DNA from: an uncultured beta proteobacterium
Lineage (GTDB): Bacteria; Pseudomonadota; Gammaproteobacteria; Burkholderiales; Burkholderiaceae_C
Reading direction: 5' to 3'
Length of the DNA stretch: 18,966 nucleotides
Assembly: GCA_903920405.1 (NCBI GenBank)
Contig: CAIXMC010000364.1
Coordinates: forward strand, 1-18,966
Below the pieces are notes generated by a model. That model ran no database searches. It had not been told where the DNA came from and saw only the letters and a list, made by a program, of their open reading frames with translations. Of this stretch, positions 1,859-18,966 are shown piece by piece. Positions within the stretch are counted from its first letter, which is position 1, and each line of letters begins with the position of its first letter. The translations under genes and the position numbers were made by a program.

Positions 1859-3427
1859 ATGATACAAAAAAATAAATATGGTCAATACTTTACGCCAAAC
1901 ATGGTGGCTGATTTCATGATTGATTTATCTGACATTCCTGCCACCGCCAAAATTTTGGAACCTTCATGCGGTGAAGGCATTTTTTTGGAATTATTGAAAC
2001 ACAAAGGATTTCATAATTTGACCGCTTACGAAATAGATGATTCATTGGCAAATAAATATCCCTTTGTCAAACATGAAAGTTTCGTCACGGCTAATATTAA
2101 TGATAATTTTGATTTAATTATTGGAAATCCGCCATATATTCGCTGGAAAAATATGCAGGATGAATTAAAAAACGAATTAACACATCACTATTTATGGAAT
2201 AAATATTTTAATTCACTGTGCGACTATTCGTATATTTTTATATTAAAAGCCATTGAATTATTGAATGAGAATGGCCAATTGATATTTATATGCCCTGAAT
2301 ACTGGTTAAATACAACACATTCGGAAACATTACGAGACTACATGGTTCAAAACGGTTATTTTGAAAAAATATACCATTTCAATGAAACCCCAATTTTTGA
2401 TAAAGTCACTGTTTCTATTATTATTTTTAAATACATAAAATCAAAACACAAAACCGCAACTATTGATATTTCCAAGCATAATGTCAATCAGAAACTAACA
2501 ATAAAAACATTGGACAATTTACGACAGAAAATACAGACTGAAACCATCAAGCATTTCACAATTTCTCAATTTCAAACCAATGAACGTTGGCTTTTACATA
2601 CCGATGAAGTGAAAAACGAAATAAAAACAACAGAAGCCAGGTGCAAAAAGATACATCAAAATCAATCACTTTTTGATAATAGTAGCCAGATCGACTATCA
2701 CACGATTGGAGATTTCTGTGATATAGGAAATGGACTGGTGAGCGGTCTTGATAAAGCGTTTCAGCTTCATGAACGCTCTTTGAACAGTGATGAGGAAAAA
2801 TCCGTTTTGAATGTTGTCAAGGCAAAAGACATTCAACCTTATTATTATCAAGGTATCACAAGATACCTGTATATTTCGGATAATTACCAGGAAGAAGATA
2901 TAAAACGCATCTATCCAAATTTTTATAGTCATTTACAACCCTATAAAATTGAACTTGAAAAACGTTATCAATACAACAAAAAAATCCCTTACTGGCAATG
3001 GGTATTCCCACGCAGTTTCAGTTTATTCAGTCGTAATGAAAAACGAATTTTTGTGCCATGCAAGGAACGAATTTCAAATAAAAATTATTTTCGTTTTGCA
3101 TTGGCAAACAGTGGAATTTACCCAACACAAGATGTCACAGCTATTTTCAAAAAGACATCAACAAAAGAAAGTATTGAGTATATTTTATGTTGGTTAAATC
3201 ATCACAGAACTTTTGATTGGCTCAAAGTCAACGGAATCATCAAAGGGAATATAGTTGAATTTTCAGAGAAACCAATAACGAGCATTCCATTTCGAGCAAT
3301 AGATTGGGACAATAAAGAGGAAACGATGATCCACCATCAAATTACCGAAATTAGCCAGTCTCTTGTGTGTATGAAAAATGACGATTTAATCTCTAAAATA
3401 AATGAGCTGATTGATAAACTTTTTTAA
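1859..3427 (+). CDS. hindIIM: Type II N6-adenine DNA methyltransferase, HindII/HincII family (predicted GTYRAC)
   Basis: This 522-residue enzyme should transfer a methyl group from S-adenosylmethionine to adenine in the recognition site of its partner endonuclease and so protect host DNA. The N-terminal KYGQYFTP (residues 6-13) is the motif X region of gamma-class enzymes. LEPSCGEG (33-40) is the cofactor-binding motif I, AYEID (56-60) motif II, and NPPY (90-93) the catalytic motif IV. The C-terminal half, from about 275 (IGDFCDIGNGLVSG), resembles the TaqI-type target-recognition domain. The length matches known M.HindII/M.HincII (about 500-520 residues). The specificity is inferred from the adjacent endonuclease, which is clearly HincII-like. 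The gene is much more AT-rich than mutL or the right-hand operon, consistent with horizontal transfer. Its stop is only 7 bases before the endonuclease start, so the two are probably co-transcribed. Confidence 0.92.
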   Translation: MIQKNKYGQYFTPNMVADFMIDLSDIPATAKILEPSCGEGIFLELLKHKGFHNLTAYEIDDSLANKYPFVKHESFVTANINDNFDLIIGNPPYIRWKNMQDELKNELTHHYLWNKYFNSLCDYSYIFILKAIELLNENGQLIFICPEYWLNTTHSETLRDYMVQNGYFEKIYHFNETPIFDKVTVSIIIFKYIKSKHKTATIDISKHNVNQKLTIKTLDNLRQKIQTETIKHFTISQFQTNERWLLHTDEVKNEIKTTEARCKKIHQNQSLFDNSSQIDYHTIGDFCDIGNGLVSGLDKAFQLHERSLNSDEEKSVLNVVKAKDIQPYYYQGITRYLYISDNYQEEDIKRIYPNFYSHLQPYKIELEKRYQYNKKIPYWQWVFPRSFSLFSRNEKRIFVPCKERISNKNYFRFALANSGIYPTQDVTAIFKKTSTKESIEYILCWLNHHRTFDWLKVNGIIKGNIVEFSEKPITSIPFRAIDWDNKEETMIHHQITEISQSLVCMKNDDLISKINELIDKLF

Positions 3428-3434
3428 CAAAATC

Positions 3435-4202
3435 ATGACAATAGATTTTATAACATTACAAAAAATCATCAAAGGATGCGCTATTCCAAAGCCGATTTCT
3501 GGGACTTTATCAGGTCATGCTGCGGGAGAACCGTTTGATAAACATGTTTACGCTGAAATTAAAAAAATATTTCCAAAAAATACATTTCGACAATACGAGT
3601 ATTTAAACTTCTTGTTTACAAAAAACTCATCGATCATTGGTGTTGAAGATCGAAACAAGTTAATTAACTCACCAACAGTCATGTTTTTGTTAAGTCGCGG
3701 AAAAAATGCAACGGACAAATGGAGTCTTGAAAATCCATTTGACGAAAAACAAAACGATACTGCAGATATTCTTGTTGTAAAAGATAATTTCTTCGAACTT
3801 ATTGACATAAAAACAAGAAACATGTCCAAGTCTGCGCAATCACCTAATATTATTTCTGCATACAAATTGGCGCAACTGTGCGCAAAAATGATTGACAACA
3901 ATGAATTTGATAATTTTAGTATTAACTATTTTGAGCTTGATTGGTTATTGGAAAATAATTTACTGATATGCAAAGATACGCATTATGGTGATTTATTTAA
4001 GTCGAATCCTTCTGACTTATACATCAATTGGGCAGCAGCTATGCAAATACAATTTCATGTCAGTGATTTAGATCAAACTTACACAGAAACTAAACAAAAA
4101 TGGACAAGAGAATATTTAAAACACTTTGTTACACAAGCAGAAATAAGGTCGCAGGATATGATTATAAAATTCGTAAAACCGTTTGAAAAATATATCAAAT
4201 AG
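3435..4202 (+). CDS. hindIIR: Type II restriction endonuclease, HincII/HindII family
   Basis: The predicted enzyme cuts unmethylated DNA, by homology at GTY^RAC leaving blunt ends. From the ATG at 3435 it has 255 residues, against 258 for HincII as I remember it. Matching segments include [13 protein letters not shown] (22-34), [15 protein letters not shown] (76-90), [13 protein letters not shown] (105-117) and [14 protein letters not shown] (196-209). The catalytic PD-(D/E)xK residues correspond to D111, D124 and K126 (HincII D114, D127, K129). Q135 matches the DNA-intercalating Q138, and N198 matches N201 at the base-contact site. All are intact, so the enzyme is probably active. I chose 3435 rather than the upstream in-frame TTG (3411) because the ATG reproduces the family's N-terminal length and avoids overlapping the methyltransferase. 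The last bases overlap the end of the broken kinase gene on the other strand. Confidence 0.93.
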
Positions 4203-4820
4203 ACATGCTGACACTGGCTGTCGTTGCTAGCGCAGTGGTCACGAGCGCAATGTTGCGCACCTGGTTGGTCAGGTTGGCGGCCATGAAGTTGACCGATTCG
4301 GTGAGGTCTTTCCAGATGCCCACCATGCCTGGCACCCTGGCCTGGCCACCGAGCTTGCCCTCTGAACCCACTTCACGCGCCACCCAAGTCACTTCGACAG
4401 AGAAAGTGCCCAGGCGATTGACCATGCCGTTGACAATTTCGGCTGATTTTCGGAACTGGCCTTCCAATGTCTTGCCATCGACTTCAAGCGGCACGGTTTG
4501 CGACAGATCGCCCGTGGAGACTGCGTTGATGACCCGCACCATTTCACTCAAGGGGCTGACCAAATTTTCAATCAAGGTATTACTGGAATCCACCAGTTTG
4601 GCCCAGGAACCATGCAAGTCACACACCGACAAACGCGCTCAAAGTCGCCCGTGGTGCGATCGGCCATGTCGATGGCATCGGCCACCTTTCCCGGCAGTCC
4701 CATCCAGTCGCTGGGCATTCGCGTTGCAAAATCACCGCGTCGCAAGGCGATCAGAGTGTTGAGCAGCAGCCCGATGTCGAGATCGTCGCTGTCCTTGTGT
4801 TTGGGGGTGTTAATGGCCAT
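4195..4820 (-). pseudogene. Broken HAMP-repeat hybrid histidine kinase, 5' fragment
   Basis: Two minus-strand frames together encode the N-terminal part of a large cytoplasmic kinase with tandem HAMP domains. The first starts at the ATG at 4820, with GGAG seven bases upstream, and reads MAINTPKHKDSDDLD, then [19 protein letters not shown] and [10 protein letters not shown]. Near 4632-4640 the frame changes to one reading [54 protein letters not shown] and [18 protein letters not shown]. These are classic HAMP-linker repeats. Compared with intact relatives, about 20 residues are missing at the shift, and the reading is cut after [10 protein letters not shown] where the AT-rich restriction gene begins. 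All later HAMP units, the kinase core and any receiver domain are absent. It therefore cannot signal and is best called a remnant truncated by insertion or deletion at the restriction-modification edge. Confidence 0.85.
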
Positions 4821-4997
4821 TGGTTGCTCCAAAGTGAGATGTGAATTAAAGGACAGCCTTGGACAGAAGCGCACAAAATGCTGATGTCTGTGTACGTGGT
4901 AAATTTATTTTCAGCCTTTAGGAAAGTGATGTGGATGCGGCAATGTTCCCTTGTCAAGCTACACGAACTTGAGTGAGTTTTTTTGCATAACAAATTG

Positions 4998-5449: not shown

Positions 5450-6607
5450 TTAAGGAGTCCCAGTATTTAAATAAAGTCCTTCATTTACGATTTTCTGTTG
5501 ATGGCTAACTGACATAAAATGCTTTTTCTTCGGTGTGCAAACAAACAAAATTTCCTGACTGCCCGCTACGCTTCCTTTGCCGCCTCTGCCTTTGTGGTAT
5601 GTTTTCGCTTCAACCTTTACATCTCTATATTTTAAAATTAATTTTTCAAATTCTTCAATTCCAGGATAGCTCCGATTATTGTAACTGATTAACCAGTTTG
5701 GTATTTCAGTTGAAAGTTCAAAGAGTCTTTTAAATGAGTTTATAACATCCCTTTTCTTATCAAATCCACTCACATGCTGGGGATTGTAACGTTTTATTTT
5801 ATTTATAAATTCTTTGTCTTTCCAATATTCAGTGTAAGTTTCAAGCAGATGATAAAAACCTTGATAGTCTGCATGACTGTCACAATAGGGCGGGTCGAAA
5901 TAAGCCAAATCAACATGATTGACTGTTGGAAGCAAATCTAAAATATTTTTATTAAAACTTTGGTTTTCTTTCTTGTTCTCGAAAATGGCATCGTTATATA
6001 TCGGAAGTATTTCTTCAAATATATCTTTGAGAGGTCTAATCAAACTTCTATTACGTTTTATTCTTTCAGGGTCTGCCGCATACACCAAAGCTTGTGTATG
6101 TCCAAAATGACCCATAGTGATTTTTCTTGTCATACTTCTGTTCATCACGGCAAAAGCAAGCGCTTGCTTGATTGGATTTTCAAGCATGGTAACGTTAGCT
6201 CTAAAATTATCCAGAAACCGAGCTTCTGCTTTTTCAAAAAAATCATTTGTAAAAGTGTTTTCGATAAGTTCAAATTCCCTTTTGTTTTTAGCGGGCTGAA
6301 AAAGAAGTCTCAAATCTTCAGCATTTAATTTTATATCTATATTTTCAATCAGCGCTAATCCAATTTGATTATTAAAATTTAAAAAATCATTTGTGATTGT
6401 TTTATATCCCAATTGTTTAAACAGGAAGGCTACTGATTGAGAGCCTGCAAAAGCATCAATAGCAGTTTTTGTATTATTGGGTATGAACTTCTTTATCCAT
6501 GCCAAATGTGTGTGTTTAGCTCCCAAATACTGAGGCTCAGGAAATTGAAAGTTGAAATAAGCGTATTCTTCAAAAAGCATTTTTATATTTTTAATATTCA
6601 CAACCAT
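5450..6607 (-). CDS. D12-class N6-adenine DNA methyltransferase
   Basis: This 385-residue protein has the alpha-class (Dam/D12) order of motifs: PQYLGAKHTHLAWI (25-38, motif X region), AFAGSQSVAF (52-61, cofactor motif I) and DPPY (238-241, catalytic motif IV), with a recognition segment between. It should methylate adenine in a target I cannot predict. It is AT-rich, like the HindII pair but unlike mutL, which suggests separate acquisition of a second restriction-modification or orphan methyltransferase. No intact endonuclease gene accompanies it; only the in-frame remnant downstream could be one. The 5' end is uncertain: the ATG at 6607 has a poor ribosome site, and the ATG at 6580 (residue 10) is also possible, since homology begins only at about residue 20. 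Confidence 0.88.
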   Translation of the reverse strand: MVVNIKNIKMLFEEYAYFNFQFPEPQYLGAKHTHLAWIKKFIPNNTKTAIDAFAGSQSVAFLFKQLGYKTITNDFLNFNNQIGLALIENIDIKLNAEDLRLLFQPAKNKREFELIENTFTNDFFEKAEARFLDNFRANVTMLENPIKQALAFAVMNRSMTRKITMGHFGHTQALVYAADPERIKRNRSLIRPLKDIFEEILPIYNDAIFENKKENQSFNKNILDLLPTVNHVDLAYFDPPYCDSHADYQGFYHLLETYTEYWKDKEFINKIKRYNPQHVSGFDKKRDVINSFKRLFELSTEIPNWLISYNNRSYPGIEEFEKLILKYRDVKVEAKTYHKGRGGKGSVAGSQEILFVCTPKKKHFMSVSHQQKIVNEGLYLNTGTP

Positions 6608-9752: not shown

Positions 9753-12443
9753 GTGAATCTTGCCAAATCAGCGTCTCTATGGCGCTCTGACAGTGTTATG
9801 GGCATCATAGTGGTGGCAGCCGTTCTGCTGCTTCATATCTCAACGGACTCCATTAGTACGCTGGAGCGGCGTTTTTATGACTTTGCCAGTACCAGCACAT
9901 CGCGTGCGCCCTCGGGCCAAATTGCTGTCATTGCAATTGATGATCAAAGCATTGCCAACATTGGGCGCTGGCCGTGGTCCCGTGATGTTCATGCCAGATT
10001 GATTGACATATTGGCCGATGCCAAGGCCAAGACCATTGTGCATACGGCTTTCTTTTTTGAGCCTCAGGTGGATCGGGGCTTGCACTACATTGCACAGATG
10101 AAAGACATGCTGACTGCCCAGACGCCTGCTTCAGGCAATTCAGCACTTCCAGAAGTGGTCGGTTTAGCCCTCCATGAACCTTTGCTCAAACTCATCAGTG
10201 AAGCCCAAACTGCGCTGGACACCGATGCCTTGCTTGCCCACAGTTTCAGCAAGGCGGGCAATGTCATCATTCCTTCTGTTTTTGTTCTGGGCGAACCTCG
10301 TGGCAACTCCGATAGCGATCTGCCCGCTTTTGCGCTTCAAAGTTCTGTTGATGAATTGGCCGGTTTTTCCATGCCCGCCGTCAGCGCGCAAGAACCTCTT
10401 GCCAGTTTAGGGCAAGCAGCAGCCGGTGTGGGGCATTTGAATCAGATTCAGGATGTCGATGGTGCGCTGCGCCAAGAGGCCTTGCTGGTCAACTATTACG
10501 GCAAGGCCGTGCCCTCCATGGCGCTACTCGCAGCCGTTAACAGCCTGAACATGAAAGTGGCCGACATCAAGCTGTACCCTGGGGCAGCAGTGCAAATTGG
10601 CAAGTTGCGCATTACCACGGACGCATCGGCCATGATGCTTCCCCAGTTCTATCCAGCACAAGCAGGACGCCCTGCGTTTGTGGTCGATTCTTTCTTTGAT
10701 GTGCTCAATGGCAAAATTCCAGCCTCCAAATACACCGGCAAAATCGTGATCATTGGAGCAACTGCCGCAGGTGTGGGGACACAGTTTGCCGTACCTGGCA
10801 ACCCCTCTTTGTCGCCGGCCGAGACTATCGCCCACGTGACCTCAAGCATTCTTAATGAGCATTTCATTGTGCAGCCCAGTTGGGCAACGGGTGCCACCTG
10901 GGGATTGTTTTTGTTGGTTTGTACTTACCTGATTTCTGTTTTACCGCGTTTGTCTGCGGGTAGGGCTGCGGCATTCACGATGATGTTGTTTGTGGCCCTC
11001 TTGGGCACTGAGTTTGGTCTTCTCTCAGGTTCTGCCCTGTGGCTCAATCTGATTTTTCCAGCCACCGTGCTGCTGCTGGGTCATCTGGCATTGACCACCA
11101 AACGATTTTTGGTGACAGAGGCCGGTAAAATCAAATCAGACGAAGAATCTGCCGAAACCAACCGCATGATGGGATTGGCGCTTCAAGGTCAAGGGCAACT
11201 TGACATGGCATTTGACCGTTTTCAGCGTGTTCCGATGGGCGACGATGTGATGGGCAATCTTTATAACCTGGCGCTTGATTTTGAGAGAAAACGCCAGTTC
11301 AACAAAGCGCAAGCCGTTTATGAACACATGGCCAATTTCAATGCCAATTACAAAGACCTGAAAGTCAAGTTGAATCGCGTCAAGAATCTTTCTGAAACCG
11401 TCATGTTGGGCGGCAGCACCCACCCTGGCGGCACACTGCAGCTTGACAGTGGTGCGGTTGAAAAACCCATGCTGGGACGCTATCAGGTTGAAAAAGAATT
11501 GGGAAAGGGAGCTATGGGTGTGGTTTATTTGGGTCGTGACCCCAAAATTGGCCGTGTGGTGGCCATCAAAACCATGTCGTTGGGCGATGAATTTGAAGGC
11601 AGTGAATTGGTGGATGCCCGTGAGCGCTTTTTCCGCGAGGCCGAAACCGCAGGCCGCTTGCAGCACCAAAACATTGTGACCATTTTTGATGCCGGAGAAG
11701 AGCACGATCTGGCCTACATTGCCATGGAGTTTCTCAAAGGCAAGGATTTGACAGCGTATTGCAAGCAAGACAACTTGTTACCCATGCCAACGGTGATCTC
11801 TATCGTGACACGGGTGGCACAGGCTTTGACGTATGCTCACCGTTCCCATGTGGTTCACCGTGATATCAAGCCCGCCAACATCATGTACGAAATAGAATCT
11901 GATACCGTCAAGGTGACCGACTTTGGCATTGCGCGCATCACCGATTCAAGCAAAACCAAGACAGGTCTGGTGCTGGGAACGCCAAGCTTTATGTCTCCTG
12001 AGCAATTGGCGGGCAAAAAGGTTGATGGTCGTTCAGACCTTTATTCTTTGAGTGTGATGCTGTTTCAAATGCTCACAGGTGTTTTGCCGTTTCGCGGCGA
12101 ATCCATGTCCGAACTGATGTTCAAAATAGCCAACGAAGAAGCCATCAATATTCGCACAGTGCGTCCTGATATCACACATGCGTTAGCAGCCGTGGTGGCA
12201 CGCGCTTTAAGCAAAGACCCCGCAGCACGCTATCAGGATGGTGACCTCTTTGCGCAGGCTTTGCAGGCGGCCACAGGCAGCGCCGCGGTGGGCATTCAAC
12301 CCCCTGTTGCACCGGCTGCCCCCTACCGAAAAACGGCAGATTTTGTGACCAAGACACCTGATTTTGAAAACACTGCCCATTTGACCTTGCCAGCCCATGC
12401 TCCCAAGGCGACCACTTCTTCAACCCCTGACTTTGAACTTTAG
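9753..12443 (+). CDS. CHASE2-domain transmembrane Ser/Thr protein kinase with TPR-like segment
   Basis: The 896-residue protein should sense an extracytoplasmic signal and phosphorylate cytoplasmic Ser/Thr residues. An N-terminal membrane anchor (about 14-30, VMGIIVVAAVLLLHIS) is followed by a periplasmic CHASE2 domain (about 35-370; RRFYDFASTST, IAVIAIDDQSIANIGRWPWS, YTGKIVIIGATAAG). Three membrane helices follow at about 378-450. A TPR-like helical stretch (about 470-540; LGLALQGQ-like then FNKAQAVYEHM) links to the kinase domain (about 572-840): GKGAMGVV loop, VAIK with K606, HRDIKPAN with D704, DFG at 723-725 and GTPSFMSPEQ. All catalytic residues are present. The tail repeats TADF (861-864), TPDFENT (868-874) and TPDFEL (891-896), likely phosphorylation or docking sites. 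It is first in a plus-strand cluster, 11 bases before its phosphatase. Confidence 0.93.
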   Translation: MNLAKSASLWRSDSVMGIIVVAAVLLLHISTDSISTLERRFYDFASTSTSRAPSGQIAVIAIDDQSIANIGRWPWSRDVHARLIDILADAKAKTIVHTAFFFEPQVDRGLHYIAQMKDMLTAQTPASGNSALPEVVGLALHEPLLKLISEAQTALDTDALLAHSFSKAGNVIIPSVFVLGEPRGNSDSDLPAFALQSSVDELAGFSMPAVSAQEPLASLGQAAAGVGHLNQIQDVDGALRQEALLVNYYGKAVPSMALLAAVNSLNMKVADIKLYPGAAVQIGKLRITTDASAMMLPQFYPAQAGRPAFVVDSFFDVLNGKIPASKYTGKIVIIGATAAGVGTQFAVPGNPSLSPAETIAHVTSSILNEHFIVQPSWATGATWGLFLLVCTYLISVLPRLSAGRAAAFTMMLFVALLGTEFGLLSGSALWLNLIFPATVLLLGHLALTTKRFLVTEAGKIKSDEESAETNRMMGLALQGQGQLDMAFDRFQRVPMGDDVMGNLYNLALDFERKRQFNKAQAVYEHMANFNANYKDLKVKLNRVKNLSETVMLGGSTHPGGTLQLDSGAVEKPMLGRYQVEKELGKGAMGVVYLGRDPKIGRVVAIKTMSLGDEFEGSELVDARERFFREAETAGRLQHQNIVTIFDAGEEHDLAYIAMEFLKGKDLTAYCKQDNLLPMPTVISIVTRVAQALTYAHRSHVVHRDIKPANIMYEIESDTVKVTDFGIARITDSSKTKTGLVLGTPSFMSPEQLAGKKVDGRSDLYSLSVMLFQMLTGVLPFRGESMSELMFKIANEEAINIRTVRPDITHALAAVVARALSKDPAARYQDGDLFAQALQAATGSAAVGIQPPVAPAAPYRKTADFVTKTPDFENTAHLTLPAHAPKATTSSTPDFEL

Positions 12444-12454
12444 TTCATTCCACC

Positions 12455-13252
12455 ATGAATTACACCTACTCCATGCAAACCAACCCTGGTTTGGTTCGTA
12501 CCAATAACGAAGATGCAGCGCTATTTGATGATCGCGCTGGCGTAGCGGTACTGGCCGACGGTATGGGTGGCTACAATGCCGGCGAAATTGCCAGCGGCAT
12601 GGCCACCACGTTTCTCATGTCAGAGCTGATACGTTGGTTGTCTGTTGTTACATACGATGTCGGCCCCGACCCTATCACGCATGCCATTGAACTGTGCGTC
12701 TCTAAAACCAATCTGTCCATTTTCAATGCCGCCAATTCCAATCCACAGTATGCTGGCATGGGTACGACTTTGGTGCTTGGTATTTTTCAGGGAAACTACT
12801 TAGTGTTGGGGCATGTGGGAGATTCTCGCTGCTACCGTCTTCGCGACGGAGTCTTGAGTCAAATCACGAAGGACCATTCCATGCTGCAAGAGCAAGTTGA
12901 TGCCGGATTGCTAACGGTACAGCAGGCCAGTACAGCGCCTGGAAAAAACCTGCTGACACGCGCTTTGGGTGTGGATGAAACAGTGCAGGTTGAAGTGCAT
13001 ACGCACACTGTCAAGGCTTACGATCTCTATTTGATGTGTTCGGATGGTTTGACCGACATGGTGACAGATGCCCAGATGGCCGATATTTTGAAGATACCCT
13101 CTGATCTCAGTGAAATTGCATCTGCACTGGTTCATAAGGCTATAGCGGGCGGCGGACGCGATAACATCACGGTTTTGCTGACAAGGGCACAACCATCCCA
13201 GGAAAAGCCCGGCTTGCTCTCACGTTTGCTCGGTAGAACAGCAACCAATTGA
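12455..13252 (+). CDS. PP2C-family Ser/Thr protein phosphatase
   Basis: This 265-residue metal-dependent phosphatase should reverse the action of the upstream kinase. It has the full PP2C motif series: RTNNEDA (15-21), VLADGMGGYNAGE (32-44), a GHVGDSRCYRLRDG block, QITKDHS, LTRALGV, CSDGLTDMV and GGRDNITVLL near the end. The aspartates in DGMGG, SDGLTD and RDN that coordinate the two metals are present. It is soluble and single-domain, of typical length for the stand-alone bacterial type (Stp/PppA-like). It starts 11 bases after the kinase stop. No strong ribosome site precedes the ATG, so translational coupling is likely. Confidence 0.95.
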   Translation: MNYTYSMQTNPGLVRTNNEDAALFDDRAGVAVLADGMGGYNAGEIASGMATTFLMSELIRWLSVVTYDVGPDPITHAIELCVSKTNLSIFNAANSNPQYAGMGTTLVLGIFQGNYLVLGHVGDSRCYRLRDGVLSQITKDHSMLQEQVDAGLLTVQQASTAPGKNLLTRALGVDETVQVEVHTHTVKAYDLYLMCSDGLTDMVTDAQMADILKIPSDLSEIASALVHKAIAGGGRDNITVLLTRAQPSQEKPGLLSRLLGRTATN

Positions 13253-13304
13253 ACTTGTTAGTTTCTTTCATCAAAATTGATACATAAAATCCATCGATTT
13301 TTGT

Positions 13305-13334
13305 AACAATTTTTGTGAAACGGACTACCAGGTT
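13305..13334 (+). promoter_or_regulatory. 30-bp block shared with the GAF-ATPase gene upstream region (copy 1)
   Basis: This block, with core CGGACTACCAGGTT, matches 14257-14286 at 26 of 30 bases. It lies in the 132-base gap before the FHA gene. Two related blocks upstream of two adjacent genes suggest a common control site or internal promoter, but no standard motif is recognised. Confidence 0.4.
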
Positions 13335-13384
13335 TTAGGTTTATGATTTTTGAGTCAGCTCTGACCCCTTTGAAGGAGGCATTC

Positions 13385-14020
13385 ATGCCCAAAGTGATTT
13401 TGTTGCTTGATGGTGTTGTCATCAAGGAAGTTGATTTGACCAAAGAACGTACCACGCTTGGTCGTCGTCCTTATAACGATATCGTGATCGAAAATTTGGC
13501 GGTCAGTGGTGAACATGCTGTCTTGATCATGGTAGGACAGCAAGTCGTCATTGAAGACCTCAACAGCACCAATGGCACTTATGTCAATGGCAAAGTGACC
13601 AAAAAACAAGCACTGCAACACGCTGATATCATTGAAATTGGCAAGTTCAAACTCAAATTTGAAAACGTGATGCCCAATGCCGATTTTGAAAGAACCATGG
13701 TCATCAGGCCTCATGCGCAGCAGCATGCACCTTCTGCATCGCCGGTTTATTCATCAGAATTGCGAGGATTTATCAAGGTCATTTCTGGTGCAGCAGCCGG
13801 ACGAGAATTGCCACTGACAAAGGTGGTCACCACCTTTGGCAAACCCGGGGTGGCCGTAGCGGCCATCACGCGGCGAACGCATCAGTTTCTTGTTCATCAC
13901 GTTGAGGGTGATGATGTGCCGTTCCTTAACGGTGTTGCTGTAGGTACAGAGCCTGTTGTTCTTAAACACGGCGACCAAATCGTGCTTGCGGGTACGCAAA
14001 TGCAGTTTTTGCAAAGTTGA
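13385..14020 (+). CDS. FHA-domain protein with a second degenerate FHA-like domain
   Basis: FHA domains bind phosphothreonine peptides, so this 211-residue protein is the likely reader of the kinase signal. The N-terminal domain (about 1-95) keeps the binding signature: LGRRPYNDIVI (25-35), SGEH (41-44) and DLNSTNGTYVNG (58-69). A linker holds NADFERTMVI (98-107), with T104 a possible phosphosite. The second domain (about 125-211) has the beta pattern and FLNG, HGDQI and VLAG, but GR is replaced by FGKPG and the SxxH signature by RRTH, so it may not bind phosphothreonine. I chose 13385 over the upstream in-frame ATG (13343) because AAGGAGG lies five bases before it and the FHA fold begins directly. 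Self-association of linker and domain, as in GarA/OdhI, is possible. Confidence 0.92.
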   Translation: MPKVILLLDGVVIKEVDLTKERTTLGRRPYNDIVIENLAVSGEHAVLIMVGQQVVIEDLNSTNGTYVNGKVTKKQALQHADIIEIGKFKLKFENVMPNADFERTMVIRPHAQQHAPSASPVYSSELRGFIKVISGAAAGRELPLTKVVTTFGKPGVAVAAITRRTHQFLVHHVEGDDVPFLNGVAVGTEPVVLKHGDQIVLAGTQMQFLQS

Positions 14021-14094
14021 TGAGTTGTGTGCAAGCCTTATGCTGGTTGCGCTGGAACATACCGCAAACGTCTGATCCACAGTGGGATAGTGTT

Positions 14095-14258
14095 AAGAAT
14101 GTGGTCGGAAATAAGTTCCGCATTTGGCTCGTCAGATTTGGGCGCATTGCGTCGTTACAAATTGTTATGTGGCTGTGCCACACTGCGCGATTTGCGCTTG
14201 GCATGGCATCTTTAACTCTGACAGCCCAATGCAAAACTTGTTTTTGACCCTATCCTAA
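14095..14258. mobile_element. Miniature inverted-repeat element, second family, copy 2
   Basis: This copy lies in the gap between the FHA gene and the GAF-ATPase gene. The left end reads AAGAATGTGGTCGGAAATAA followed by GTTCCGCATTTGGC; the right end (to 14258) reads TTTTTGACCCTATCCTAA. The interior (CGTCGTTACAAAT, CACACTGCGCGATTTGCGC, ATCTTTAACTCTGAC) closely matches copy 1 at 6766-6941. The right end is more diverged. It occupies most of the intergenic space and may affect transcription across the operon. Confidence 0.7.
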
Positions 14259-14286
14259 CCATTTTGGTGAATCGGACTAACAGGTT
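14257..14286 (+). promoter_or_regulatory. 30-bp block shared with the FHA gene upstream region (copy 2)
   Basis: The core CGGACTAACAGGTT and flanks match 13305-13334 at 26 of 30 bases. It begins where the miniature element ends and runs to four bases before the ATG at 14290, so its AGG may serve as the ribosome site. The element appears to have inserted just upstream without damaging it. Confidence 0.4.
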
Positions 14287-14289
14287 ACC

Positions 14290-16662
14290 ATGAATACCTC
14301 TTCCAGGTTACCTCATGTCGAGCGTGCCGGCATGACGTTTGAGGCTCTGTTTTACAAGCAACTGCAACACGTGACAGCCCGCATTCACGAGACCGACAAC
14401 ATCGAGCAAATCATGCTCGAATCCAGCCCTGACATTTGCAAGCTCTTCAATGCCGATCGTCTGACGTTGTATGTGGTGAATGAAGACTGCAATGCCATTG
14501 TCTCGAAAATTAAAACCGGACTCAACAGTAGCCGTGACCTCAAACTGCCCATCACACCTCAAAGCGTGGCGGGTTATGTGGCCTACAGCCGATCCCTGGT
14601 CAATTTGCCAGATGTGTATGACGATGAAGCACTCAAACGTGTCCATCCGTCCTTGACCTTTCTCAAGGAAGTTGATAAACGATCAGGCTACCGCACGCGA
14701 CAAATGCTGGTGGCCCCCATTGTGGATGGTGACACGCTCAATGGTGTGCTGCAAATCATCAACAACAAAAGCGACCAGCCCTTTGGCGATCTGGAGGTTG
14801 AAGGTATTGCCCAACTGTGCAAAACCCTGGCCACTGCCATCAGGCATCGCCTTCGCAAGCAGGAAGAAAGTGTTCGTCGCATGGTGACCAAGTACGATGC
14901 CTTGGTCACCAATGGCATCATGACGGCTGAAGAATTGCAACATTGCCTGCAAGAGGCTCGTACCGAGGGTCACACTGTAGAGCATATTCTGCTGACACGC
15001 TACCAGGTTCGGTCTGCACAAATTGGTCCCTCGCTGTCCAAATTTTTTGGTGTTCCTTATGAGCCTTTTAGCCCTGGCATTTTGCGATCTGAAATACTGC
15101 ATGGCAGCTTGAAGCGCGATTTTGTGGAGGAACAGGGCTGGATTCCACTAGAAGAATCGCCCGATGGCTTGGTGGTGATGTGTCTGGACCCTGAGGCCGT
15201 TCGCAGTTCACGCATCTTGCAGCAGGTGTTCCCCAAACTCACCAAATTTGCCTACCGTGTGACCACCCTCGGCGAATTCAAGGAAGCACTGGCCAAAATA
15301 TTTGGTGTAGAGGCCGCCGGTGGCAGCATTGACGATTTGCTGGCCGACATGGACAGTGGTCCGATGGACGATGGCACAAATGAAGATTCTCTTGAGTCTG
15401 CCGCTGCCGACAACGAGCTGGTCAAATTTGTCAATAAAGTCATCATTGATGCCTATTACCAGGGGGTGTCAGACATTCACATTGAACCGATGCCGGGAAA
15501 GCTCAAAACCGGCATTCGTTTTCGCATCGATGGCTCGCTGCAACCTTATATTGAAGTGCCGGCGCATTTTCGTGCAGCCATGGTCACGCGGCTGAAAATT
15601 ATGTGCGACCTTGACATTTCCGAGCGCCGCAAGCCGCAAGACGGTAAAATCAAGTTCAAAAAATACGGACCGCTTGACATTGAACTTCGCGTGGCAACCA
15701 TTCCATCAGCTGGTGGTGTGGAAGACGTGGTGATGCGAATTTTGGCAGCCGGTGAGCCTATCCCCATGGACAAACTGGGATTGACCCCTCACAACAAAGA
15801 TCGGGTCATCAAAACCATCGAAAAACCTTACGGTTTGTTTTATGTCTGTGGCCCCACAGGTTCAGGCAAAACCACCACACTGCACTCGATTTTGAAGCAC
15901 CTGAATACACCCGACACCAAGATATGGACAGCCGAGGATCCCGTAGAAATTACCCAAAAAGGTCTGCGCCAGGTTCAAATCAATAAAAAAGCCGGTATTG
16001 ATTTTGCGCTGGTGATGCGAGCATTTTTGCGTGCTGATCCTGACATCATCATGGTGGGTGAGTCGCGCGACAAAGAAACCGTGTCGATGGGTGTGGAAGC
16101 CTCTCTGACAGGCCATCTGGTATTTTCAACGCTGCACACCAATTCAGCGCCAGAATCCATCACACGCTTGCTCGACATGGGCATGGACCCCTTTAATTTT
16201 GCCGATGCACTGCTGGGCATTTTGGCGCAGCGTCTTGCCAAACGGCTGTGCGCCTGCAAGCAATCTTATGTGCCCGATGCTGAAGAATTGCGCCTGTTTG
16301 CTGCTGAATACGCCGAGGAACTTCGGCACTCTGTCAAATGGAAGACCGACTACAACTGTGAAATGGCCAAACTCCTTGCCAGTTGGCACGCCACCTATGG
16401 CGAAGGAGGTGAACTCAAGTTTTACCGCCATGGAGGGTGTGACAAATGCAATCAAACGGGCTACAAAGGCCGGGTGGGTCTGCATGAACTATTGATTGCA
16501 GATGATGGCATTAAAAAACTGATTCAAGAGCGTGCGCGTGTGGCTGAAATTTTTGCAGCGGCCGTAGAGGGTGGTATGAGAACTTTGAAAATGGACGGTA
16601 TGGAAAAAGTAATGATGGGTCTCACTGACCTGAAAATGGTGCGATCCGTATGTATCAAATAA
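14290..16662 (+). CDS. GspE/PilB-family secretion or pilus ATPase with N-terminal GAF domain
   Basis: The 790-residue protein belongs to the hexameric motors that drive type II secretion or type IV pilus assembly from the cytoplasmic side. It begins with a GAF domain (about 20-195; FNADRLTLYVVNEDCNAIV, LPITPQSVAGYVAYS, NGVLQIINNKSDQPFGDLE). An MshEN/GspE N-terminal domain follows (about 205-345). The ATPase core starts near 385 (NKVIIDAYYQGVSDIHIEP), with Walker A GPTGSGKTTT (521-530), the Asp-rich LRADPDIIMVGESRD block with D585, and the His box LTGHLVFSTLHTNS. C654/C656 and C717/C720 form a probable zinc site with an unusually long spacer. Usual family members lack GAF, so this is a fusion with a ligand- or redox-responsive sensor. 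No secretin, pseudopilin or platform protein lies nearby; neighbours are signalling genes. The downstream protease starts 14 bases after it. Confidence 0.93.
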   Translation: MNTSSRLPHVERAGMTFEALFYKQLQHVTARIHETDNIEQIMLESSPDICKLFNADRLTLYVVNEDCNAIVSKIKTGLNSSRDLKLPITPQSVAGYVAYSRSLVNLPDVYDDEALKRVHPSLTFLKEVDKRSGYRTRQMLVAPIVDGDTLNGVLQIINNKSDQPFGDLEVEGIAQLCKTLATAIRHRLRKQEESVRRMVTKYDALVTNGIMTAEELQHCLQEARTEGHTVEHILLTRYQVRSAQIGPSLSKFFGVPYEPFSPGILRSEILHGSLKRDFVEEQGWIPLEESPDGLVVMCLDPEAVRSSRILQQVFPKLTKFAYRVTTLGEFKEALAKIFGVEAAGGSIDDLLADMDSGPMDDGTNEDSLESAAADNELVKFVNKVIIDAYYQGVSDIHIEPMPGKLKTGIRFRIDGSLQPYIEVPAHFRAAMVTRLKIMCDLDISERRKPQDGKIKFKKYGPLDIELRVATIPSAGGVEDVVMRILAAGEPIPMDKLGLTPHNKDRVIKTIEKPYGLFYVCGPTGSGKTTTLHSILKHLNTPDTKIWTAEDPVEITQKGLRQVQINKKAGIDFALVMRAFLRADPDIIMVGESRDKETVSMGVEASLTGHLVFSTLHTNSAPESITRLLDMGMDPFNFADALLGILAQRLAKRLCACKQSYVPDAEELRLFAAEYAEELRHSVKWKTDYNCEMAKLLASWHATYGEGGELKFYRHGGCDKCNQTGYKGRVGLHELLIADDGIKKLIQERARVAEIFAAAVEGGMRTLKMDGMEKVMMGLTDLKMVRSVCIK

Positions 16663-16676
16663 CAGGGGCTTGAGTC

Positions 16677-17528
16677 ATGCCCCCTCTGAACAACATTTGC
16701 GCTTGCTGTGGGCGTCGCCCTTTTCTCAAGGGCATGGCGGCTTTGATCATGTTACCTGGCACTGAGGTCAATGCCCGTGAAGGCGTGGAAGTCGGCAACA
16801 ACTCCATGTTTGGCAACCTGGTGTCCGCCGATCAGCTTGAGCAGTCTGCCGCCCAACAATATGCGCAAATGCTGCAACAGGCAGCAGCCCAAAAAGCGCT
16901 GGCAGGCAACACGCATCCTCAGGTGAAGCGTCTGCGAACCATTGCCCATCAGTTCATTCCCCATGCACTCGGGTGGAACGTGCGGGCTAAAAACTGGCGC
17001 TGGGAAGTCAACCTGATTGGTAGCTCACAAATCAATGCGTTTTGCATGCCTGGCGGCAAAATTGTGTTTTACACCGGTATTCTTGATAAGCTCAAACTCA
17101 GCACCGACGAAGTCGCCTCGGTGATGGGGCATGAAATGGCACATGCCCTGCGTGAACACGCAAGAGAACGCATCGGTAAAACAACAGCCACCAGTGTGGG
17201 AGTCAGCCTCTTGAGCAGTGCCTTGGGGTTGGGGCAACTGGGCCAAACTGTGACCAACTACGGCGCCAAATTGCTTACGTTGCAATTCAGTCGCGGCGAT
17301 GAATCTGAAGCTGACCTTGTTGGTATGGAACTTGCCGCACGATCCGGTTTTGACCCACGTGCAGGGGTTTCGCTGTGGCAAAAAATGGCCATTGCCAACA
17401 AAGGCGCACCGCCGCAGTGGTTATCCACCCACCCGTCTGGCACCACCCGCATTGCCGACATTCAGGCCAATTTGCCCAAAGTCATGCCACTGTTTGGACG
17501 CTCTGCGACATTGTCAAAAATACAGTAA
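16677..17528 (+). CDS. M48-family zinc metalloprotease, probably Tat-exported
   Basis: This 283-residue protein is a stand-alone M48 peptidase of the BepA/LoiP-like periplasmic kind. HEMAH (152-156) supplies two zinc-binding histidines and the catalytic glutamate, and ESEAD (209-213) fits the third-ligand ExxAD motif. INAFCMPGGKIVFYTG and DEVASVMGHEMAHAL are conserved landmarks. The N-terminus carries RRPFLKG (13-19), close to the twin-arginine consensus, followed by a short hydrophobic stretch and a likely cleavage site after VNA. C8, C10 and C11 before the arginines are unusual. AGGGG lies upstream of the ATG at a usable distance. The 14-base gap to the ATPase gene implies co-transcription. 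Relatives act in outer-membrane protein quality control or processing, so a role in maturation of an envelope machine is plausible but not shown. Confidence 0.92.
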   Translation: MPPLNNICACCGRRPFLKGMAALIMLPGTEVNAREGVEVGNNSMFGNLVSADQLEQSAAQQYAQMLQQAAAQKALAGNTHPQVKRLRTIAHQFIPHALGWNVRAKNWRWEVNLIGSSQINAFCMPGGKIVFYTGILDKLKLSTDEVASVMGHEMAHALREHARERIGKTTATSVGVSLLSSALGLGQLGQTVTNYGAKLLTLQFSRGDESEADLVGMELAARSGFDPRAGVSLWQKMAIANKGAPPQWLSTHPSGTTRIADIQANLPKVMPLFGRSATLSKIQ

Positions 17529-17547
17529 TTGGCTTCACTTTGCTATA

Positions 17548-17566
17548 TTTATTGACCATATCCTAA
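17548..17566. repeat. Relic end of the second miniature-element family
   Basis: TTTATTGACCATATCCTAA matches the right end of the elements at 6766-6941 and 18847-18906 (TATTGACCATATCCT is shared exactly with the latter). No interior or partner end is present. It lies in the 75-base gap between the protease and J-domain genes. Confidence 0.5.
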
Positions 17567-17603
17567 AACCATATTTCATCCCTAACTTTTCAACATTGAA
17601 CCC

Positions 17604-18758
17604 ATGCCAAAATCGAGACGACTTTTTGCAGACGAGACGCCCGCCACATCAGCCCAGACATCAGACACCAACACGGCCTTGACGGCGCTGAAGTTTGATC
17701 ACTCAACCCAGTCGCCAGAGCAAAAGCGCTTCAACAAGTTGCTTGCGCAAACACAGACACTTGCGCGCAAAATAGATTCAGCGCAACAAAACGTCGATCA
17801 CTACCGCAGGATGAGTGCCAGTGTGCTGATGCCTCTTGAGAAAGATCGCGACAAATTGATGCGTCAGATGGCGCTTTGGCTGGATGCACGCCTTCAACGC
17901 AGGGGTTTAACTGCTCGGCAAAAGATGATCGCCAAAGAGCTGATTTGCGATTTGGCGGGTGCTCTGTCTGCGTCGGGTGATACAGAAATGCGGGCACTGC
18001 ACGATGCCCACAGCCCTGAGTCTTTGGATGAAAAGGAAAAGATTGATGCGCAAGACATACAAAGTTTCATTGAAATGATGACAGGTACAAAAATGGACAA
18101 ATCCTTTGAGAACCTGGATGATTTGATGCATGCCAGCTTTGAGCACATGAGCGCCCAAATGGAATCTGAACGTGACACATCTATCCGTCGCCATGCTTCG
18201 CGCAAAAAAACGGCCACCCAGAAAAAAACAGATGCACTTGAACAAGATGCCAATGGTGCACTGCGTACCATTTATCGTCAACTTGCCAGCGCCTTGCACC
18301 CCGACCGTGAAACAGACCCAGAAGAACAATTGCGCAAAACCGCGCTGATGAAAGATGCCAATACCGCCTATCAGCGCCGTGATCTGTTGGCATTGCTTGA
18401 GTTGCAATTCAAAGCCGATCTGGTGGACAGTACACACATTGCGGGAATGGCCAAAGAAAAATTGAATGCCTTGACCACTTTGCTCAAAGAGCGAGTGGGC
18501 GTGTTACAAAGTGAATTTGAACAATTCAGGATAAAAGAACAAATGGCGTTGAGCTTGCCGCTTGACTGCGGTTTGACAGCCACTGAACTGAACCAATGGT
18601 TGGCAAAATGTGAGCTTGACTTACGTGAAGAAATTACCGCGATGCAAGAAGACCTGCAGGAGGTACAAGACGATGCACGTTTCAAACGTTGGTTACAGGT
18701 GCAATATCAAAAAGACGATGCATCCGTTGACGCTTTGAACCCCTTTGATTTTTTCTAA
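17604..18758 (+). CDS. Protein with C-terminal J-domain (DnaJ-like co-chaperone)
   Basis: The 384-residue protein has a charged, helical N-terminal half with probable coiled coils (about 35-80 and 95-150). A J-domain lies at about 215-275: IYRQLASALHPDRETDPEE with the HPD triad at 232-234, then LMKDANTAYQRRDLLALLEL. HPD stimulates Hsp70 (DnaK) ATPase, so this should recruit DnaK to a specific client. The C-terminal 110 residues are again helical (LNQWLAKCELDLREEITAM) and end DALNPFDFF. There is no signal peptide, glycine-rich region or zinc finger, so it is a type III J-protein with a dedicated client rather than a general DnaJ. It is last in the plus-strand cluster, 75 bases after the protease gene, with no strong ribosome site. 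Its client may be the ATPase or FHA assembly, which is a guess from position. Confidence 0.85.
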   Translation: MPKSRRLFADETPATSAQTSDTNTALTALKFDHSTQSPEQKRFNKLLAQTQTLARKIDSAQQNVDHYRRMSASVLMPLEKDRDKLMRQMALWLDARLQRRGLTARQKMIAKELICDLAGALSASGDTEMRALHDAHSPESLDEKEKIDAQDIQSFIEMMTGTKMDKSFENLDDLMHASFEHMSAQMESERDTSIRRHASRKKTATQKKTDALEQDANGALRTIYRQLASALHPDRETDPEEQLRKTALMKDANTAYQRRDLLALLELQFKADLVDSTHIAGMAKEKLNALTTLLKERVGVLQSEFEQFRIKEQMALSLPLDCGLTATELNQWLAKCELDLREEITAMQEDLQEVQDDARFKRWLQVQYQKDDASVDALNPFDFF

Positions 18759-18846: not shown

Positions 18847-18966
18847 TCCTGGCATTGCATCCCAACTCTGACGGCCAAATGCGGAACTTATTATTGACCA
18901 TATCCTTAGGATGTGGTCAGAAATAAGTTTCGCATTTGGCCGTCAGAGTTGGGATGCAATGCTGGA
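18847..18966. repeat. Two second-family element ends meeting tail to tail: long palindrome at the right edge
   Basis: The left arm (about 18847-18906) ends CTTATTATTGACCATATCCT and the right arm (18908-18966) begins AGGATGTGGTCAGAAATAAG. The arms are near-perfect complements over about 58 bases, including GCATCCCAACTCTGACGGCC, around a single central T at 18907. Both arms match the ends and flanking interior of the element at 6766-6941. The right copy continues beyond the window. Transcribed, the pair would form a very long hairpin downstream of the J-domain gene and could end the operon transcript. The sequence between 18759 and 18846 is AT-rich with no gene. Confidence 0.75.

Follow-up and report, generated by a model that had tools for sequence, protein, structure and literature searches.

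The PpkA/PppA/Fha proteins act as a threonine-phosphorylation switch of type VI secretion, and PilB is commonly regarded as the sole indispensable extension motor of the type IVa pilus (T4aP). The available part of one report (PMC8213720) describes TfpB as a second extension motor in Acinetobacter baylyi and a TfpB homologue without PilB in P. fluorescens A506, and that of another (PMC3164672) mentions "three PilB paralogs" in Ramlibacter tataouinensis. The present study concerns contig CAIXMC010000364.1 (C364; the analysed stretch, hereafter the window, has a length of 18,966 nucleotides) in the draft genome (2.68 Mb, 89.8% complete) of an uncultured freshwater beta proteobacterium of the order Burkholderiales. 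It carries a cluster that includes the genes of a CHASE2 Ser/Thr kinase, a PP2C phosphatase, an FHA protein and a GspE-type ATPase with an N-terminal GAF domain (GAF-ATPase). We consider it likely that this cluster represents a signal-gated T4aP extension motor, standing in for PilB in its own genome. The comparative case for this assignment, which is built on sequence, is strong, and that for the control of the motor by the phosphorylation module is moderate. Among the matches listed, no description of such a motor or locus was found in the titles and abstract openings of the open-licence PMC literature, and the term GAF is absent from the main texts of PMC11656802 and PMC8213720.

A preliminary description of the window had proposed that the motor either serves a machine encoded elsewhere or has a different job. 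Our analysis favours the former, with the T4aP as the most probable machine, and not the latter. The own genome was found to carry pilus parts on other contigs, namely PilQ over the cut-off (C291), one pilin (C255), platform proteins on C430 (PilC, together with PilD) and C101, and motors on C69 (PilT/PilU-type) and C83 (a third, PilT-like one) (the esterase below and the names PilD, PilT, PilU, sucC, sucD, terC, recA, mnmA, ftsY, coaE, zapD and greA were assigned by sequence reading throughout). The gene order around pilC is greA-pilB-pilC-pilD-coaE-zapD in the same-order genome G010 and mnmA-ftsY-esterase-pilC-pilD-coaE-zapD in the own genome, where the gap between the esterase gene and pilC is less than 80 bases and no pilB is present within the 5.2 kb covered upstream of pilC-pilD. 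The GAF-ATPase gene, being on C364, is not adjacent to the pilC of C430. Likewise, all 13 of the other PilB-negative genomes selected for inspection lack a pilB before pilC (3.1–8.7 kb upstream covered), with G019 (358 bases upstream) and G021 (a stretch without the pilC-pilD locus) left out of the count, and pilB was located directly before pilC in three of three genomes that have it, two being contig-end pieces. G005 and G020, first taken as PilB-negative, carry pilB pieces at contig ends. Canonical PilB appears to have been lost from the own genome.

The distribution of the two motors was determined in a sample of 150 Burkholderiales genomes of at least 90% completeness, with the own genome added. 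PilB was over the cut-off in 83, PilQ in 127 and the GAF-ATPase, as judged from the match list, in 68. Co-occurrence with a secretin set had been suggested as a check, and the GAF-ATPase indeed tracks PilQ, being present in 67 of the 127 PilQ-positive and 1 of the 23 PilQ-negative genomes; the latter genome (G065) has a sub-cut-off PilQ match, and PilB is found in 0/23 PilQ-negative genomes. The PilQ-positive genomes comprise 38 with the GAF-ATPase only, 54 with PilB only, 29 with both and 6 with neither, so that PilB is absent from 38/67 genomes with the GAF-ATPase compared with 6/60 without it (Fisher p 2e-8, uncorrected for kinship). The genomes having only the GAF-ATPase (39 with G065) are spread over 17 families of the order. 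PilB was over the cut-off in 31/60 genomes of a sample of relatives. A tree of 46 GAF-ATPases, which may differ from the species tree, was labelled for PilB (27 rows with it, 18 without it and 1 unlabelled). The label changes 8 times, with starred branches forcing at least 4 of these changes, and is clustered, the average for shuffled labels being 14.3; PilB-negative rows occur at four places within the genus.

To pair motors with platforms, T2SSE motors and T2SSF platforms were listed in three genomes that are 100% complete and consist of 1–2 contigs (G050, G140 and G173), with pairing defined as location within 5 kb. In all three, the sole platform gene without a nearby motor was that of PilC and the sole extension-type motor without a platform was the GAF-ATPase, the other over-cut-off motors being of the PilT/PilU type by size and score. 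This elimination is not clean in every genome, which weighs against our assignment, as G055, G177, G175, G059 and the own genome carry further stand-alone motors. In G104, one of the genomes classed as having the GAF-ATPase only, a 633-bit PilB-like motor groups with GspE rows with modest support (91/75). It could be argued that the GAF-ATPase is an accessory second extension motor, like TfpB beside PilB, and that genomes without PilB use a DUF4388-MshEN or C294-type motor instead. The TfpB precedent in A. baylyi, as given in the available parts of PMC8213720 and PMC11656802, the retention of PilB in 29 of the 67 PilQ-positive genomes with the GAF-ATPase and in 20 of 36 same-genus genomes (the own genome counted among the 36), and the presence of both the C32 and C294 motors in the own genome are in line with this possibility. 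We nevertheless regard it as unlikely, in view of the lack of any other unpaired extension-type motor in G050, G140 and G173 and of the association of PilB loss with the presence of the GAF-ATPase.

As to the stand-alone motors themselves, those of L090 (on C32) and L057 have the DUF4388-MshEN-T2SSE architecture, the former accompanied by another N-terminal part next to the motor and the latter near genes that read as ParA-like. The C294 motor (L089:3274-4851, plus strand) is a stand-alone protein of 525 amino acids on a 6.8 kb contig on which no platform gene was read, and its relative in G050 adjoins a platform gene. G055 has a long PilB/GspE-like paralogue (L058) upstream of genes read as pilMNOPQ.

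The GAF-ATPase itself is related to, and separate from, the known T4aP motors. It scored 466.1 bits against the canonical PilB model TIGR02538 (cut-off, 675.65; 477.3 for the G050 orthologue) and 377 bits against the TfpB model NF053534 (cut-off, 850), and in a tree the GAF-ATPases form a clade apart from the PilB rows (support for the PilB rows, 100/100). The nearest solved motors are the T4P ATPases PilF and PilB (348 and 347 bits), slightly above GspE (324 bits), and a profile of the N1 region gave weak matches to PilF/PilB (E 3e-5 to 9e-4). The catalytic motifs had been described as intact, and they proved to be invariant in aligned relatives: K527, E549, D550, E591 and H616 of the ATPase, with its four cysteines, in 111/111; K606, D704, K706, N709 and D723 of the kinase in 53/53; and R41, S55, H58 and N77 of the FHA protein in 98/98.

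With regard to the sensor domains of the ATPase, a profile search with the GAF domain gave CyaB2 as the best match (E 3e-34), followed mostly by GAF domains of cyclic-nucleotide phosphodiesterases, and PtsP GAF domains ranked first in a fold search. Among the matches listed in the fold search of the ATPase, the GAF domain dominates and the MshEN part is hardly represented. GAF sequences from loci with and without a cyclase gene (60 vs 43 rows) did not differ clearly. The RLG-type pattern, the cyclic di-GMP (c-di-GMP)-binding motif of MshEN, was found in 0 of the 111 aligned GAF-ATPases, and c-di-GMP control through MshEN was rejected as a candidate. In a wider frame set, duplicates included, a loose form of the motif was found in 3/119 GAF-type and 8/89 other motors and a strict form in 0 and 1, respectively, indicating that few of the motors here, of whatever type, carry the pattern at all.

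The neighbourhood was compared among 125 collected ATPase loci (117 with distinct ATPases), in which neighbours were labelled by BLAST against the families found at these loci and each count refers to the loci with enough flanking sequence. Among the best 80 of 587 ATPase relatives, Rhodoferax accounts for most of the top ones, ahead of Polaromonas, Ramlibacter and further genera of Burkholderiales; the closest of the 80 is 99% identical. The protein is also present in Rhodoferax ferrireducens T118. Separation of the homologues in related genomes, or a routine ATPase paralogue with a distant pilus operon of its own, had been named beforehand as findings that would speak against the cluster. 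For PP2C, FHA and ATPase the outcome went against such a refutation. On the same strand upstream of the ATPase gene, the FHA gene was found in 85/88, the PP2C gene in 83/88 and the kinase gene in 39/55 loci, which is beyond what chance would give. Across Burkholderiales, the genes of PP2C, FHA and ATPase form a conserved core, with the kinase frequent, and the earlier suggestion that the three signalling genes belong with the ATPase is borne out. Neighbours in relatives further include a CHASE2-cyclase (49/88 loci; Pfam CHASE2 and Guanylate_cyc, all Pfam assignments here being from one representative each), a metallo-beta-lactamase (MBL)-fold protein similar to class-II cyclic AMP (cAMP) phosphodiesterases (55/103; Lactamase_B_2/PDEase_II), a cyclic nucleotide monophosphate (cNMP)-binding protein (13/103; cNMP_binding and Rhodanese) and a GAF/HD protein (23/86; GAF and HD_5). 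A pilin-type gene, recognised by BLAST or N-terminal pattern, lies within 4 kb downstream of the ATPase gene in 42/80 loci (Pilin and N_methyl) and a PglL-like gene within 5 kb in 17/75 (Wzy_C/PglL_A). The fullest order, a composite of which individual loci may miss genes, is sucC-sucD-terC-kinase-PP2C-FHA-cyclase-MBL-(cNMP-binding)-ATPase-(GAF/HD)-pilin-PglL. In many relatives, the CHASE2 adenylate cyclase and MBL phosphodiesterase-like genes are thus placed between the FHA and ATPase genes. The cyclase, MBL and pilin genes are absent from the analysed locus, which adjoins mutL and not sucCD.

The kinase, phosphatase and FHA genes might be merely co-located with the motor gene and regulate something else, for example, sucCD or envelope stress, considering that sucC- and sucD-like genes are upstream in many loci and that the kinase is not universal. 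This is quite unlikely to be the case, because the PP2C and FHA genes are so regularly found upstream of the motor gene and because the module stays with the motor in the analysed contig, despite the change of neighbour to mutL.

The two downstream genes, which had been taken for parts of the system, are not retained as such. The M48 protease gene was found in only 20/80 loci and was rejected as a core part. The J-like gene was found downstream of the ATPase gene in 0/65 loci, and none of its nine same-genus orthologues (eight with 46–56% identity and one with 34%) adjoins the ATPase gene, being on another contig or, in the single-contig G010, far from it; it was rejected as a member. The N-terminus of the M48 protein (RRPFLKG) reads as similar to a twin-arginine translocation (Tat) signal; the strict RRxF[LI] pattern is present in 4/22 relatives, and twin arginines followed by a hydrophobic stretch are present in all 14 N-termini inspected.

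The signalling proteins have features that are consistent with a phosphorylation circuit. In the kinase, only the CHASE2 and kinase domains were over the cut-off, the PknB-type PASTA kinase model NF033483 giving 301.9 bits (cut-off, 450), and the C-terminal tail is not conserved among the aligned relatives. Thr549, in the linker sequence SETVMLGG directly before the kinase domain, is a candidate phosphosite and is kept in 48/52 relatives. The second half of the FHA protein looks like a degenerate second FHA domain, and the sequence FERTMVI between the halves contains another candidate phosphosite, the linker Thr being kept in 74/93 relatives. Both linker sites presumably resemble the ETTSVF-type site of GarA. 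The start of the FHA protein was placed at the ATG at 13385, where the alignment of its relatives begins. A parallel with the type VI secretion switch had been drawn for these three proteins; it holds for the general logic and not for the FHA protein as such, which gave 34.7 bits against the TagH-type model (cut-off, 120.25).

That the GAF-ATPase drives not the T4aP but another machine, for type II-like secretion or a pseudopilus, as its GspE-type annotation and the MshEN/T2SSE architecture common to both machines could suggest, is very improbable and unsupported, as the own genome separately encodes a type II secretion system with its own GspE (670.5 bits, cut-off 630.25, adjoining secretin-like and Gsp-like genes by sequence reading), whereas the GAF-ATPase gave 425.8 bits against the GspE model TIGR02533, below that cut-off, tracks PilQ and frequently has a pilin neighbour (neighbours were not scanned singly for Gsp families).

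The layout of the cluster is given in the table below. The order and strand of the six ORFs were confirmed, as were the gaps of 11 bases between the kinase and PP2C genes and 14 bases between the ATPase and M48 genes. The remaining gaps are of 90 (132 if the FHA protein starts at 13385), 269 and 75 bases, and a single transcript is therefore not implied. The domain calls of the preliminary description stood for the kinase, phosphatase, FHA protein, ATPase and protease, and that of a J-domain turned out to be weak (DnaJ profile, E 0.0066; 17.0 bits vs cut-off 27.8).

Table. Features of the cluster and their positions in the window
Feature	Position	Strand	Basis
CHASE2 sensor and Ser/Thr kinase, GTG start	9753..12443	+	Pfam CHASE2 E 8e-49, Pkinase E 1e-53
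Stp1/IreP-type PP2C phosphatase	12455..13252	+	NF033484 237.6 bits, cut-off 230
FHA protein	13385..14020	+	Pfam FHA E 7e-23; ORF opens at 13343
FHA-ATPase gap, 269 bases, with degenerate dispersed palindromic element (14094-14258)	14021..14289	.	Repeat search
GAF-MshEN-T2SSE ATPase, proposed alternative T4aP extension motor	14290..16662	+	Domain profiles and genome comparison
ATPase domains	GAF about 14431-14841; MshEN-like N1 about 15049-15315; T2SSE 15406-16641		
M48 metalloprotease, Tat-like N-terminus	16677..17528	+	Pfam Peptidase_M48 E 8e-35
HPD-bearing J-like protein, judged outside the system	17604..18758	+	DnaJ sub-cut-off match

Elsewhere in the window, a HincII-type restriction endonuclease (PF09226, E 8e-138) is encoded with an overlapping Eco57I/N6-type methyltransferase and a D12-class methyltransferase nearby (1859-4202, plus strand; 5450-6607, minus strand). 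On the minus strand, the contig end truncates a MASE3-PAS sensor protein (1-1176), and two overlapping frames (4195-4874) code for chemoreceptor-like sequence with a HAMP domain, probably a broken or partial gene. A near-perfect palindrome of 111 bases at 18852-18962, with two 55-base arms that are 93% complementary, has the degenerate relative listed in the table. Similar copies occur on a further six contigs of this genome (L088, L092, L093, L185, L198 and L248), and the palindrome is hence a dispersed element like a miniature inverted-repeat transposable element or a repetitive extragenic palindrome. No Rfam family at gathering score and no tRNA were found within the window, and promoter- and terminator-like sites were not in excess over shuffled sequence.

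For the operation of the proposed motor, we infer the drive of extension, the action of the kinase, phosphatase and FHA protein on the motor and the ligand of the GAF domain as follows. The GAF-ATPase, a hexameric-type member of the PilB/GspE superfamily, would act on the PilC platform and polymerise the pilin, both of which are encoded at other loci, replacing the PilB that is missing from the pilC-pilD operon of its own genome. The CHASE2 kinase may sense an extracytoplasmic cue, leading to autophosphorylation and phosphorylation of its partners, which the PP2C phosphatase would reset, and the FHA protein would read phosphothreonine and so link the motor to the phosphorylation state. A further input could come through the GAF domain, with a cyclic nucleotide as the most probable signal, because the cyclase and class-II cAMP phosphodiesterase-like genes precede the motor gene in many relatives.

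More broadly, we see about an even chance that this is a further T4aP motor family apart from PilB and TfpB, with a GAF sensor and a module of kinase, phosphatase, FHA protein, cyclase and phosphodiesterase, that has independently displaced PilB several times in Burkholderiales, with extension run by threonine phosphorylation and cAMP in this species and many others. If so, a missing pilB would not mean missing pili, and annotation across a large bacterial order would need correction. Such natural replacements would also help in asking what is important in an extension motor and how phosphorylation and cyclic nucleotides can switch it directly.

Among known systems, PpkA/PppA/Fha is similar in that a set of kinase, PP2C phosphatase and FHA protein is tied to an envelope machine, and differs in that there is no TagH match over the cut-off here and the machine would be a pilus motor. 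MshE and other c-di-GMP-binding extension ATPases are under second-messenger control through an N-terminal domain, according to the available part of PMC11656802, and would resemble the GAF-ATPase in this if the proposed control of the latter holds, whereas the extra sensor here is a GAF domain and the c-di-GMP motif is missing from the aligned sequences. The GAF-ATPase shares with PilB a T2SSE core with all motor motifs, an MshEN-like N1 region, PilF/PilB as the nearest solved structures and the tracking of PilQ, but it has an added N-terminal GAF domain, lacks the canonical c-di-GMP motif, falls below the cut-off of the PilB model, forms a separate clade and is not encoded beside pilC. TfpB, as far as the available part of PMC8213720 describes it, is likewise a PilB-like motor encoded distant from pilC and working with the same pilus, and the GAF-ATPase is distinguished from it by the sub-cut-off score, the GAF domain and the neighbourhood of kinase, phosphatase, FHA and cyclase genes.

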